This document shows positions 13,051 to 20,387 of a stretch of DNA of 64,000 bases, one piece after another. The first letter of the stretch is position 1. Each line of letters starts with the position of its first letter. The position numbers were made by a program, and so were the translations under genes. The stretch spans positions 1 to 64,000 of the forward strand of contig PNKH01000034.1 of assembly GCA_013822345.1 (NCBI GenBank). Direction: 5' to 3'. The stretch comes from Isosphaera sp. GTDB taxonomy: Bacteria; Planctomycetota; Planctomycetia; Gemmatales; Gemmataceae. The notes beneath the pieces are model-generated. The model did not search any database and was not told where the DNA came from. It was given only the letters and a program-made list of their open reading frames with translations.

Positions 13051-13066
13051 CCCGCGGCGCCCGATC

Positions 13067-13150
13067 GTTTAGCCGCGACGCGGAGTCTGCGGAGCGGAGC
13101 GCGGCGTCGACGCCGCGCTCCGCTCCGCAGACTCCGCGTCGCGGCTAAAC
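13067..13150. repeat. 84-bp perfect palindrome, family B
   Basis: Two 42-bp arms with no loop, every base paired: GTTTAGCCGCGACGCGGAGT onward to the centre GTC/GAC at 13108/13109. It lies between convergent genes, 16 nt from one stop and 8 nt from the other. A second 84-bp copy lies at 41037-41120. Confidence 0.97.
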
Positions 13151-13158
13151 GGTTTAAT

Positions 13159-14895: not shown

Positions 14896-15627
14896 GTGAC
14901 CGACCCCCAGCACGACCCGGCCCGGGCGCTGTCCGCGTACCTCCTCGGCACCCTCGGGTTCGACGCCCTGCTCGCCCTCCAGCGGCGGCTCGTGTACGAG
15001 GCCGGCGGCCCGCGGCCGGTCGCCTCCCTCGTCGTCTGCGACCACCCACCCGGGATCACCGTCGGCCGGGAGGGGAGCCGGGCGCACATCCGCCCATCGC
15101 CGGAGCAACTACACGCCCGCGGGTGGCCGGTCCGGTGGGTCGGCCGCGGCGGCGGGGTCATGCTCCACCTCCCCGGACAGGTCGCGTGCTACCCGGTCCT
15201 GCCGCTCGCCGCCCTCGGGTTGACCCCCGCCGGGTACGTCGCCGGGCTGCAGGCGGTCGGCGTCGACCTGCTCCGGTGGTACGGGGTCACCGCCGAGCCC
15301 GACCCGGACCGCCCCGGGGTGCGGGCGAACGGCCGGCGCGTCGCCCACCTCGGGGTGGCGGTACGCGGCGGGGCGACGTGCTTCGGCCTGGTCGTCAACA
15401 CCGACCCCGACCTCCGGCCGTTCCGCGATGTCCGGTGCGACGGCGACCCCGCCCCGATGACCTCGATCGCCCGCGAGTCGTCCCACCGCGTCACCGTCCC
15501 CGGCGTCCGCCAGCGGTTCGTCGAGTTGGTCGCCGCCCGGTGGGGGTTCGACCGAATTTCTCTCTTCCACCAGGGACCCGGGGCCCTCCCCCGGCCGACG
15601 CCCCATGCTGCCGCTCACCGTCCTTGA
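14896..15627 (+). CDS. lipB: Octanoyltransferase LipB family, with altered active-site residues
   Basis: 243 residues. LipB moves octanoate from acyl-carrier protein to lipoyl domains. Family motifs are clear: RGGGVMLHLPGQ (about 84-95), GRRVAHLGVAV (146-156), FGLVVN (163-168) and the acyl-accepting Cys181 in DVRCDGD. However, the catalytic lysine of the usual GRKIA.LG motif is Arg148 here, and the conserved histidine of T.HG.ALN is Phe163. The protein may be a divergent active form or have a changed role. The start is GTG. Its end overlaps lipA by 23 nt. The LipB and LipA families are the basis of the call; activity is not certain. Confidence 0.88.
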   Translation: MTDPQHDPARALSAYLLGTLGFDALLALQRRLVYEAGGPRPVASLVVCDHPPGITVGREGSRAHIRPSPEQLHARGWPVRWVGRGGGVMLHLPGQVACYPVLPLAALGLTPAGYVAGLQAVGVDLLRWYGVTAEPDPDRPGVRANGRRVAHLGVAVRGGATCFGLVVNTDPDLRPFRDVRCDGDPAPMTSIARESSHRVTVPGVRQRFVELVAARWGFDRISLFHQGPGALPRPTPHAAAHRP

Positions 15628-16498
15628 CGCCCCGCCGCCGCGGACCGGCGGCCGGCTCCCCGGCTGGCTGAAGCGGCCGCTCCCGGCCGGGGACGGGAAC
15701 GCGTACACCCGCCACCTGCTCGACGACCTGCGGCTCGAAACGGTGTGCGAGAACGCGAAGTGCCCGAACCGGCCGGAGTGCTGGTCGCGGCGGGCGGCGA
15801 CGTTCATGGTGCTCGGGAACGTCTGCACCCGGCCGTGCAGCTTCTGCTCGGTCCCGAAGGGGGAGCCGCTGCACGTCGAGGACGACGAGCCGGCCCGCGT
15901 CGCGGAGGCGGCGGTCCGACTCGGGCTGAAGCACGTCGTCATCACCAGCGTGACCCGCGACGACCTGCCGGACGGCGGGGCCGACCACTTCGCCCGCTGC
16001 ATCCTCGCGGTCCGCGACCGCCTCCCGGACGCCGGCGTCGAGGTGCTGACCCCGGACTTCCTCGGCGACCCGGCCGCGATCGACCGCGTCACCGACGCCC
16101 GGCCGGACGTGTTCAACCACAACCTGGAGACGGTGCCGCGGCTGTACCGGGTGGCCCGCGGCCGGGCCGAGTACCGCCGCAGCCTCGACCTGCTCGACCG
16201 GGTGAAGCGCCGGGCCCCGGGCGTGGTCACCAAGGCGGGGCTGATGCTCGGGATCGGGGAGACGATCGACGAGCTGTTCGACGTGCTGGCCGACCTGCGG
16301 GCGGTCGGGTGCGAGGTGGTGACGCTCGGGCAGTACCTGGCCCCGACGCTGAAGCACAGCATCCCGGTCGCCCGGTACGTCCCGCCCGAGGAGTTCGACG
16401 CGATCGCGGCGAAGACCCGGCTACTCGGGTTCCGGAGGGTGGTGGCCGGGCCGTTCGTGCGGTCGAGCTACCACGCCGACGACATGGTGCCGGCGTGA
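15605..16498 (+). CDS. lipA: Lipoyl synthase (radical SAM)
   Basis: 297 residues, usual length. It inserts two sulfur atoms at C6 and C8 of protein-bound octanoate. The auxiliary cluster cysteines are Cys48, Cys53 and Cys59 (CENAKCPNRPEC). The radical SAM cluster cysteines are Cys74, Cys78 and Cys81 (CTRPCSFC). The C-terminal RSSYHAD supplies the serine that ligates the auxiliary cluster. All expected residues are present, unlike in LipB next door. It starts within lipB and its stop overlaps the start of the next gene (GTGA), so the three genes are translationally coupled. Confidence 0.97.
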   Translation: MLPLTVLDAPPPRTGGRLPGWLKRPLPAGDGNAYTRHLLDDLRLETVCENAKCPNRPECWSRRAATFMVLGNVCTRPCSFCSVPKGEPLHVEDDEPARVAEAAVRLGLKHVVITSVTRDDLPDGGADHFARCILAVRDRLPDAGVEVLTPDFLGDPAAIDRVTDARPDVFNHNLETVPRLYRVARGRAEYRRSLDLLDRVKRRAPGVVTKAGLMLGIGETIDELFDVLADLRAVGCEVVTLGQYLAPTLKHSIPVARYVPPEEFDAIAAKTRLLGFRRVVAGPFVRSSYHADDMVPA

Positions 16499-16725
16499 AG
16501 GTGGCGGTCGTGTTACCGGAGTTGGGGGCGGCGCGGGCGACGTTCAGCCTGTGGCACGTCCGGCCCGGGGACCGGGTGTTCGAGGGCGACCGGGTGGCGG
16601 AGGTGCTGATCCCCGGGGCCGCGGTGGATGTCCACGCCCCGGCCGACGGGGTGCTGGTCGAGCAGGCGGCGTTCCCGCAGGACGTGGTGTCGGCGGGGCA
16701 GGTGCTGGGGTGGGTCGAAGAGTAG
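16495..16725 (+). CDS. Lipoyl/biotinyl-like domain protein lacking the modified lysine
   Basis: 76 residues starting at the GTG that overlaps the lipA stop. The fold pattern of a free-standing lipoyl domain is clear: VAVVLPELG, then LWHVRPGDRVFEGDRVAEVL, then VHAPADGVLVEQAAFPQDVV and AGQVLGWVEE. In lipoyl domains the hairpin turn reads E..TDKA. Here the aligned turn is IPGAAV, so the lysine that carries lipoate is replaced by glycine. The protein cannot be lipoylated at that position. Possible roles are a decoy or chaperone for LipA/LipB or a structural swivel remnant. The TAG stop is the first three bases of the adjacent inverted repeat. Confidence 0.8.
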   Translation: MKVAVVLPELGAARATFSLWHVRPGDRVFEGDRVAEVLIPGAAVDVHAPADGVLVEQAAFPQDVVSAGQVLGWVEE

Positions 16726-16810
16726 GGTGCGTCGAGGCCCGCTTCGGGCCGAAGACGCACCGGCGCCGGGTGCTGCGTCGTCGGCCCGAAGCGGGCCTCG
16801 ACGCACCCTA
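16723..16810. repeat. Inverted repeat, family D (GTAGGG type)
   Basis: Perfect 28-bp arms (16723-16750, 16783-16810), TAGGGTGCGTCGAGGCCCGC plus TTCGGGCC, around a 32-nt centre. Each half also folds on itself (GGTGCGTC with GACGCACC at 16754-16761), as in REP units. The left end supplies the stop codon of the lipoyl-like gene. Confidence 0.93.
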
Positions 16811-16819
16811 CAAAACATC

Positions 16820-17467
16820 ATGCCCAGTCCTGTGTTCCTCTCGTTCGACGGCCTCGACGGCACCGGGAAGTCGACCCAGTGCCGGCTCCTCGTCGACTGG
16901 CTGGCCGGGCAGAAGGTGCCGGTGACCGCGTGCGCCGACCCCGGCGGGACGGCCGTCGGGCAGGAGCTGCGGAAGCTCGTGCTGTTCGGCCGGGAGCACC
17001 GGATCGCGACGGCGACCGAGGCGCTGCTGTTCATGGCGTCGCGGGCGCAGCTGGTGGACGAGGTGATCCGCCCGGCGCTCGACCGCGGCGAGGTGGTGGT
17101 GTCCGACCGGTTCAGCCTGGCGAACGTGGTGTACCAGGGGCACGCCGGGGGGATGGACCCGGCCGGGCTGTGGGCGGTCGCGGCGGTGGCGACCGGCGGG
17201 CTGGAGCCGGACCTGACGCTGGTGTTCGACGCCCCGCTGGAGGTGACGCTGGCCCGCCGGACGCGCGACGCCGACCGGCTGGAGGAGCGCGACCGGGAGT
17301 ACCAGCAGGCGGTGCGGCGGGGGTTCGTGTTCGAGGCGGGCCGCCGCCCGGACCGGCACCGGATCGTCGACGCCACCCCCGACCCGGACGCGGTCCAGCG
17401 GGTCGTCCGACGGGAGGTCGCCCGGCTGCTGGCGGGGCGCGGGTGGGACGTGTCGGCGGACGGTTGA
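16820..17467 (+). CDS. tmk: Thymidylate kinase
   Basis: 215 residues. It phosphorylates dTMP to dTDP. The P-loop is GLDGTGKS (about 10-17), the substrate motif is VVVSDRFSLAN, and the lid region is LARRTRDADRLEERDREY. Start ATG 16820 gives the canonical MPSPVFLSFDGLDGTGKST opening. It lies directly upstream of holB on the same strand, a common bacterial pairing. No good Shine-Dalgarno is visible because the preceding inverted repeat ends only 9 nt before the start. Confidence 0.95.
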   Translation: MPSPVFLSFDGLDGTGKSTQCRLLVDWLAGQKVPVTACADPGGTAVGQELRKLVLFGREHRIATATEALLFMASRAQLVDEVIRPALDRGEVVVSDRFSLANVVYQGHAGGMDPAGLWAVAAVATGGLEPDLTLVFDAPLEVTLARRTRDADRLEERDREYQQAVRRGFVFEAGRRPDRHRIVDATPDPDAVQRVVRREVARLLAGRGWDVSADG

Positions 17468-17474
17468 TTGACTC

Positions 17475-17533
17475 GACCGCGGCCGTCTCGGCCGCCGCTT
17501 CGGGTAGCCGGAGCGGCCGAGACGGCCGCGGTC
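17475..17533. repeat. Inverted repeat, family A variant
   Basis: Perfect 21-bp arms (17475-17495, 17513-17533) with a 17-nt loop, between tmk and holB. The core is GCGGCCGTCTCGGCCGC instead of GCGGCCGTCCCGGCCGC, and both arms carry the change, so pairing is kept. Confidence 0.92.
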
Positions 17534-17548
17534 CAGGGAAGGAACCAC

Positions 17549-18562
17549 ATGTCCTGGGACTGGGTCCGCGGGCACGCCGGGCCGAAGGCGACGTTCCGGG
17601 CGGCGGTCGACCGCGGCCGTCTCGGCCAGGCGTACCTGCTCGTCGGCCCGGACGGGGTCGGCAAGCGGCGGTTCGCCCGCGAACTCGCCAAGGCCCTCCT
17701 CTGCGACCGGCCCCCCGCTCCGCTCACCGCCTGCGACGCCTGCCCGTCGTGCGCGCAGGTCGAGGCCGGTACCCACCCCGACGTCCTGTCGCTCCGCACC
17801 CCGGAAGGAAAGCACGAACTCCCGGTCGACGAGATGCGGGCGTTCTGCGCCCGGCTCGCACGCACCCCCGTCCGCGGCGGCAGGAAGGTCGGGGTCGTCG
17901 AGGACGCGGACGACTTCAACGCGGAGGCGGCGAACGCCTTCCTGAAGGCACTGGAGGAGCCGCCGCCCGGGGCGGTGCTGCTGCTCGTCGCCACCGGCAC
18001 CGACCGCCAACTGCCGACGGTCCTGTCCCGCTGCCAGGTGGTGCGGTTCGGCCCGCTCGCCCCCGCCGACGTGGCCGCCGTGCTCGCCGAGCACGGGGTC
18101 GACGACCCGGCCCGGCGCGACCGCCTCGCCCGACTGTCCGGCGGGAGCGTGGCGCGGGCGCTGGCCCTGGACGACGAGGCGATCGGGGCGGTGCGGGAGG
18201 AGCTGGTCGGCGGGCTGACCGCGGACCGGCCGAACTTCGTGCGGATGGCCGAGGCGTGGGGCCGGTTCGTCGAGGACGCCGGGAAGGACACCGCCGCCCA
18301 GCGGACCCGGGCGTCGGCCGTGATCGGGTTCCTGGTCGACGCCCTGCGGCAGGCGCTCCGGCTCGCGGCCGGGGCGGCCGTCCCGGACCTCGACCCGGCG
18401 GACGAGGCCCGGCTGAAGGCGTTCGCCACGAAGCACGGGCCGGACCGGCTGCTCGAGCTGGTCGAGAAGTGCGTCGAGGCGGACTACCGGGTCGAGCGGC
18501 GGGTGCAGCTGGTGCTGGTGATCGAGTCGGTGCTGGAGCAGTTCACCCGCAAGTCCGCGTGA
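17549..18562 (+). CDS. holB: DNA polymerase III delta-prime subunit
   Basis: 337 residues. It is part of the clamp-loader complex that places the sliding clamp. The AAA+ core begins at WDWVRGHAGPK, with P-loop-like GPDGVGKRRFA (about 38-48) and a Cys cluster (CDACPSC), part of the zinc-binding module of DnaX and delta-prime proteins. The Walker B-like VVEDADDFNAEAANAFLK and SRCQVV (arginine-finger SRC motif) are typical. ATG 17549 is placed after the inverted repeat; the longer frame would read through it. Downstream is a solo repeat unit. Between 17607 and 17627 the coding DNA is identical to 21 bp at 17473-17493. Confidence 0.93.
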   Translation: MSWDWVRGHAGPKATFRAAVDRGRLGQAYLLVGPDGVGKRRFARELAKALLCDRPPAPLTACDACPSCAQVEAGTHPDVLSLRTPEGKHELPVDEMRAFCARLARTPVRGGRKVGVVEDADDFNAEAANAFLKALEEPPPGAVLLLVATGTDRQLPTVLSRCQVVRFGPLAPADVAAVLAEHGVDDPARRDRLARLSGGSVARALALDDEAIGAVREELVGGLTADRPNFVRMAEAWGRFVEDAGKDTAAQRTRASAVIGFLVDALRQALRLAAGAAVPDLDPADEARLKAFATKHGPDRLLELVEKCVEADYRVERRVQLVLVIESVLEQFTRKSA

Positions 18563-20273: not shown

Positions 20274-20387
20274 CCTGGAGCGCGGCCGTCCCGGCCGCTC
20301 CACGTCGGCGGCGCGGGGGGCGGACGGACGTCCCGCTTGGGCGCCGGCGCGCGGTCGGTGGAGCGGCCGGGACGGCCGCGCTCCAGG
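20274..20387. repeat. Inverted repeat, family A
   Basis: Perfect 30-bp arms (20274-20303, 20358-20387), CCTGGAGCGCGGCCGTCCCG and on to GCCGCTCCAC, around a 54-nt centre. It is between co-directional genes, 13 nt upstream of the CHAD start. Confidence 0.94.

Follow-up and report, generated by a model that had tools for sequence, protein, structure and literature searches.

The Locus and Its Gene Order

Lipoylation is a central and conserved process in which few proteins are of unknown role. In the window (the whole stretch of 64,000 nucleotides from Isosphaera sp. analysed in this work), the genes lipB and lipA are followed by a short gene whose product resembles a lipoyl domain deprived of its acceptor lysine. 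This raises the question of what such a protein might do beside two genes of lipoylation. A preliminary description of the same DNA had put forward a binding partner, a regulator or a decoy of lipoylation, and each of these putative roles is possible. The features to be considered are the following (window coordinates):

14896..15627, plus strand: gene of a LipB-family pseudo-octanoyltransferase (family matches, alignment to 2qhs and 1w66)
15605..16498, plus strand: lipA, lipoyl synthase, apparently intact (motifs, TIGR00510)
16495..16725, plus strand: small gene, coding for a lysine-less free-standing lipoyl-fold protein of 76 amino acids (ORF, Pfam, AF2)
16495..16498, plus strand: GTGA, the 4-base overlap between the start of the small gene and the lipA stop codon TGA (direct reading)
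16820..17467, plus strand: tmk, thymidylate kinase, a conserved downstream neighbour used for orthology
17549..18562, plus strand: holB, DNA polymerase III delta', a conserved downstream neighbour used for orthology

The gene order is lipB, lipA, the small gene, a hairpin repeat (16722-16811), tmk and holB. Direct reading confirmed both the small open reading frame, running from GTG at 16495 to TAG at 16725, and the overlap of its start with the lipA stop, as previously described.

The hairpin repeat upstream of tmk starts at the stop codon of the small gene; its 20-base end pattern occurs in two exact copies (its arms) and two weaker ones, with 0.44 expected in the window. Long hairpins are also found at 17462-17546 and 20274-20387, and a perfect palindrome of 86 bases, with arms of 43 bases and no spacer, lies at 13066-13151.

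Fold of the Small Protein

The Pfam model Biotin_lipoyl (PF00364) matched the small protein with 30.1 bits (cut-off 22.1), and the AF2 model, obtained with 51 orthologues as input, has a lipoyl fold with a mean pLDDT of 97.3. Foldseek and VIA matched this model to E2 lipoyl domains and to BCCP/biotinyl domains, VIA giving Z 12.8 and rmsd 1.2 over 69 aligned positions with 2ejf_C, and Z 11.3 and rmsd 1.7 over 76 aligned positions with 1qjo. These data (PF00364, AF2, Foldseek and VIA) place the protein in the barrel-sandwich lipoyl/biotinyl fold, and the profile match together with the predicted fold bears out the lipoyl-type strand pattern noticed beforehand. The NCBIfam models retrieved were those of E2, E1-beta and carboxylase proteins, all far below their cut-offs; GcvH (PF01597) was absent from the Pfam matches at E <= 1, and no PHROG family was matched at E <= 0.01.

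At the hairpin turn, the position of the lysine is occupied by Gly41 in the motif IPGA (codon 16615-16617), Pro-Gly-Ala standing where lipoyl domains have Asp-Lys-Ala; the absence of the acceptor lysine, as first read, is therefore correct. The small protein shares with E2 lipoyl domains (PF00364) the fold, the length and the signatures GD-x-V-x-x-G-D and AP-x-x-G, but, unlike them, it is free-standing, with neither an acceptor lysine nor an attached catalytic domain, and it possesses an Arg33 that is invariant in 51 members from Gemmataceae.

Conservation in Gemmataceae

Close orthologues, defined by E <= 1e-12 in a search of 95 Gemmataceae genomes, were present in 51 of them; the weaker matches, which were read in part, were mostly frames of E2 length. 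None of the 51 orthologues has a lysine at the turn, where PGA is the commonest sequence and RGA, AGA, GSA, ESA, GAA and others also occur; no conserved Lys, Cys or Ser was found at this turn among the 51 proteins. Invariant residues are W20, G25, G31, R33, E36 and G52, and all 51 frames are open. A lipA gene lies on the same strand within the fetched stretch for 49 of the 51 small genes, at a distance of 25 bp or less in 42 of the 49. The other same-strand neighbours are lipB (45), tmk (43) and holB (38); since many of the fetched stretches are short, these neighbour counts are lower bounds. Thus, both the conserved lack of the lysine and the conserved synteny with lipA, on which the preliminary description had asked for a check of the orthologues, were found.

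The dN/dS ratios (NG86) range from 0.03 to 0.32 for the small gene (14 pairs, every pair well under 1), from 0.06 to 0.26 for LipB (13 pairs) and from 0.00 to 0.17 for LipA (13 pairs), single values being rough because dS is very high or very low in some pairs. The small protein and the LipB that accompanies it are under purifying selection. The number of orthologues, their closeness to lipA and these ratios indicate that the small gene is no product of chance.

A recent loss of the lysine in this genome is ruled out by the 51 close orthologues that also lack it. A drift away from lysine due to high GC content is disfavoured as well, because in the same genome the lysine is retained by five E2-type lipoyl domains, by GcvH and by two LplA-type paralogues of LipB. 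Moreover, 23 of 24 long-frame matches from twelve other members of the class (some representing the same protein twice) keep the lysine, and the remaining one (L371) aligns only in part.

The Other Lipoylation Proteins of the Same Genome

The five E2-type domains, distributed over four proteins, have TDKA, TDKA, SDKA, GSKA and TDKA at the turn, and the separate GcvH has ESVKS. A second GcvH-like protein (L271) has the turn ETQKA. Two further proteins, LplA/LipM-like, keep the family lysine (GGVKFSG and GGSKIAG); in NCBIfam both are nearest to LplA models, far below the cut-off, and either of them might be a LipM, judging from its motifs.

The LipA of the window matched TIGR00510 with 362.5 bits (cut-off 310.25) and has the motifs CENAKCPNRPEC, CTRPCSFC and RSSY. 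It also displays the LipA motif Cx3Cx2C. The patterns Cx4Cx5C and RSSY are given as LipA motifs in PMC12246082. Judging from these matches, LipA looks intact.

The LipB-Family Protein

LipB is an enzyme with a Cys/Lys dyad, formed by Cys169 and Lys135 in Escherichia coli and by Cys176 and Lys142 in Mycobacterium tuberculosis (PMC9307952). The alignment of the window protein to 2qhs and 1w66 revealed that Arg148 replaces the catalytic lysine (codon 15337-15339) and that the catalytic Cys181 (codon 15436-15438) and the RGG loop are kept. The structural model (pLDDT 92.7) has 2qhs and 1w66 as its best Foldseek matches; PF21948 gave 85.3 bits, and TIGR00214 75.8 bits, below the cut-off of 83.55. 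This cut-off fails to separate dead from intact LipBs, because a dead relative (L052) passes it with 93.3.

The loss is widespread in the class Planctomycetia, the catalytic lysine being absent in 86 of the 89 LipBs whose residues were read and kept in three (G025, G071 and G099); G027 and G036 also have a LipB, outside this count. It is replaced by R (30), Q (24), P (11), L (11), M (5), T (2), C (1), H (1) and V (1). The cysteine is also absent in 48 of these 86 proteins and kept in 38, all from Gemmataceae; since these 38, the window protein included, still have it, a residual activity of lysine-less LipBs is possible. All 27 LipBs called with the lysine, the three exceptions of the class included, have the cysteine in its motif context. 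The earlier reading of LipB as a working lipoylation enzyme was hence abandoned, in view of Arg148 and of the many relatives lacking both residues. In this light, the locus is better interpreted as a pseudo-substrate accompanied by a pseudo-enzyme than as a decoy acting on working enzymes.

The PGQ motif, like R59 and G60 of the RGG loop, is invariant among 32 dead LipBs. The same source reports that the RGG loop of E. coli LipB is required for full activity, that K135A is among the inactive mutants, and that the catalytically inactive K135A/C169A still binds octanoyl-ACP, with about 36 uM (PMC9307952). The retained RGG loop and the binding reported for the double mutant suggest that a non-catalytic LipB can retain ligand binding. 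Overall, the window protein resembles the LipB octanoyltransferases (TIGR00214; PDB 2QHS, 1W66) in fold, RGG loop, PGQ motif and adjacency to lipA, and differs from them in its score under the TIGR00214 cut-off and in belonging to a class that has mostly lost the lysine and, in 48 cases, also the cysteine.

Carriers in the Deeper Planctomycetota

In 392 genomes sampled from the phylum, a profile search retrieved, outside the class, short free-standing relatives of the small protein, many of which have DKA, EKT or SKA at the turn. The lysine is present in 30 of 117 tabulated carriers. All 123 carriers (these 117 and six found later) end 40 residues or less past the domain and are therefore distinct from E2 proteins. 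The order lipB-lipA-carrier-tmk is found in a lysine-bearing lineage (L227), the order carrier-holB in two others (L233 and L268), and the order E3-lipA-carrier-holB in L244. Sequence, together with the common neighbours lipB, lipA, tmk and holB, indicates that these carriers are orthologous to the small protein. In the deep Planctomycetota the acceptor lysine is mostly present in the carrier, and the LipB there has its Lys/Cys dyad. The possibility, raised at the beginning, that orthologues with a lysine would betray a recent loss here therefore stands in its first half, for the deep Planctomycetota, and fails in its second, the loss being old and common to the class Planctomycetia.

Outside Planctomycetia, the carrier lysine was lost in family f79 (G239, G283 and G307) and in G401, which has its genus code (g266) in common with the lysine-bearing G463 and G446; LipB was not found in these four genomes at E <= 1e-8. 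Family f79 (L236, L237 and L244) represents a second lineage in which the carrier lacks its lysine; lipA adjoins, and no LipB was found. Another family, f48 (L228, L229 and L231-L234), has lysine-bearing carriers with acidic C-terminal tails; holB adjoins in L233, and lipA was not found near these carriers in the fetched stretches.

Coupled State of Carrier and LipB

The comparison of the two proteins genome by genome revealed that, where the carrier lysine is present, LipB has both its lysine and its cysteine (25 of 25 genomes), and that, where it is absent, the LipB lysine is absent as well in 85 of 86 genomes, the 85 including G001, in which lipA and the small gene are frameshifted. A first tabulation had given 24 genomes with both lysines, 79 with neither, one with the lysine only in LipB (G025) and one with the lysine only in the carrier (G246). 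The last case turned out to be an alignment artefact due to an insertion: the frame reads ...LAKIAAIG... and ...VPCG..., and LipB is intact. Likewise, a lysine-less carrier was located elsewhere in the genome in six cases in which the dead LipB had appeared to stand alone (G125, G238, G295, G384, G416 and G458).

The exceptions are G025, in which LipB has the lysine and the carrier has none, and G408, with a dead LipB and no carrier detected. In addition, lysine-bearing carriers occur without a detected LipB in G446, G471, G351 and G419, and with only a LipB fragment in G215, and no carrier was detected in G071 and G099, two members of the class with a canonical LipB. On the LipA tree of 131 genomes the carrier lysine changes twice, and the 85 of 86 genomes do not represent 85 independent events, because within Planctomycetia the coupled loss falls essentially on a single branch. 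The cross-genome correlation is strong but rests on few independent events. The sequences show that in the class Planctomycetia the acceptor lysine and the catalytic lysine of LipB were lost together, and that enzyme and substrate very probably degenerated as a pair.

Joint Presence and Linkage

A profile of the dead LipBs (A2), searched against the 95 Gemmataceae genomes at E <= 1e-20, matched 52 of them, one being G071, which has a canonical LipB. LipB and the small protein are both present in 50 genomes and both absent from 43, one genome having the small protein alone (G047, in which the contig stops inside lipA) and one LipB alone (G001, the frameshifted case). The pair is present or absent as a whole even within genera: in g15 (both in G036 and G037, neither in G038 and G039), in g20 (both in G044, neither in G045 and G046) and in g28 (both in G061 and G063, neither in G060, G062 and G064-G066). 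It is also kept where LipB is not beside lipA (G004, G027, G036, G037 and G049). In G031 the LipB-like and the small gene (L057, L163) adjoin with no lipA between them, and lipA was not found in this genome at E <= 1e-20, a finding at odds with a role on LipA only.

A quick LipA tree of 131 genomes places 12 changes of each of the two traits within Gemmataceae. Counting well-supported branches, there are only three independent co-changes of presence, all in the same direction (sign test, p 0.25), a number of pairs with which significance cannot be reached.

In G001 (L333), decay or sequencing errors have broken lipA and the small gene into pieces in several frames; the LipB frame is open. In G071 (L160), which lacks the small protein, a single open frame of 544 codons covers both LipA and the canonical LipB, perhaps as a natural fusion; inspection by eye of the frames at the fetched loci showed no clear fusion of the small protein to LipB or to LipA.

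Comparison with Known Systems

Lysine-less lipoyl folds are found in other contexts too, and pseudo-enzymes as such are familiar. In titles and abstract openings of a mostly non-subscription literature, no description of a dead LipB paired with a dead carrier was found. LplB, the partner in the archaeal bipartite ligase, is the accessory domain of that ligase and does not have a lipoyl fold. The archaeal LplA-LplB ligase shares with the window pair the association of a protein of lipoyl-transferase fold with a small partner (PMC10332631), but, unlike in the window pair, the ligase is active.

Small lipoyl-fold proteins acting as first octanoyl acceptors are reported in the GcvH relays, LipM-GcvH-LipL in Bacillus and LIPT2-GCSH-LIPT1 in humans (PMC10332631, PMC12246082), and this is the role suggested for the ancestral lysine-bearing carriers. 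The window protein differs in being encoded with lipB-lipA, and the GcvH family was not among its Pfam matches at E <= 1; the form present in Planctomycetia is unable to bear a group at the position of the usual lysine. LbpA of sHdr sulfur oxidation likewise has a lipoyl fold, stands alone and is encoded near dedicated lipoylation genes (PMC6067878, PMC10332631); it differs in being GcvH-like and linked to sHdr genes. Furthermore, the co-occurrence of LipB and LipM is reported to be very rare in a survey of GTDB (PMC10332631); dead LipBs may account for part of it.

Possible Explanations for the Pair

According to these data, we can depict the following scenario for the origin and the role of the pair. 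The ancestor of the small protein would be a dedicated lipoyl carrier, free-standing and with its gene in a cassette of the order lipB-lipA-carrier-tmk-holB. In the deep Planctomycetota, LipB presumably octanoylates this carrier, after which LipA would insert sulfur. After the coupled loss in Planctomycetia, the dead pair would have stayed folded and selected, other LplA/LipM-like transferases presumably having taken over octanoylation. At present the two proteins might form a stable pseudo-enzyme:pseudo-substrate heterodimer acting in lipoylation without catalysis; it could dock onto LipA or onto octanoylated E2/GcvH or, alternatively, sense octanoyl donors via the retained RGG-loop pocket. 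We give an even chance to this account as a whole, in which an ancestral carrier and its LipB turned into a pseudo-substrate/pseudo-enzyme pair that is most likely a non-catalytic accessory complex of lipoylation. A physical complex of the LipB-like protein with the carrier is somewhat probable; that such a complex acts on LipA or on lipoylation is a more tentative proposal.

The closeness of the small gene to lipA might instead point to a LipA subunit or chaperone, which would mimic a lipoyl domain and permanently protect or position LipA, LipB being a bystander. The same-strand arrangement (49 of 51) and the short distances (42 of 49 within 25 bp) agree with it, but lipA occurs without the small protein and without LipB (A2 search) in 31 of the 95 Gemmataceae genomes, G071 also does without the small protein while having a canonical LipB in one frame with lipA, and the small protein tracks LipB even when unlinked and, in G031, in a genome with no detected lipA. 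We consider this reading unlikely, and prefer the LipB:carrier pair mainly because the small protein tracks LipB more than LipA. A decoy or brake, in which the lysine-less domain fills the lipoyl-domain site of LipA or of active octanoyl/lipoyl transferases and so limits lipoylation, appears quite improbable: the protein does have the fold of a real substrate domain minus the acceptor, and at the usual place it is unmodifiable, but co-producing an inhibitor with LipA would presumably carry a cost, and neither the accompanying lysine loss of LipB nor the joint absence of both proteins would be explained.

The pair might also still be catalytic, LipB using Cys and Arg and the small protein carrying an acyl or other group elsewhere or non-covalently. 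The 38 lysine-less LipBs of Gemmataceae that keep the cysteine and the lysine of the G025 LipB would fit this possibility; it is nevertheless very unlikely, given the loss of activity reported for E. coli K135A (PMC9307952), the 48 of 86 LipBs that lack the cysteine too, and the lack of a conserved Lys, Cys or Ser at the turn of the 51 small proteins. Finally, both genes could be decaying remnants carried along by the operon, as the lost catalytic residues, the 43 of 95 Gemmataceae genomes with neither of the pair and the frameshifts of G001 might suggest. Such an explanation is hardly credible in the face of dN/dS values well below 1 in all pairs tested, of 51 open frames out of 51 with six invariant residues (W20, G25, G31, R33, E36 and G52), and of the persistence of the pair across the class members examined.

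Implications

The presence of a gene annotated as lipB in a planctomycete genome need not mean octanoyltransferase activity. The intact ancestral form of the pair predicts a dedicated lipoyl carrier outside GcvH. We tentatively propose, at somewhat less than even chances, that the permanent association of a pseudo-octanoyltransferase with a lysine-less carrier represents a new accessory complex of Planctomycetia, derived from an undescribed GcvH-independent relay still active in the deeper Planctomycetota. The locus would offer a clean natural case of a pseudo-enzyme and a pseudo-substrate kept together under selection across a bacterial class, and it suggests, for a large group of planctomycetes, that an essential pathway includes a non-catalytic partnership not described so far.
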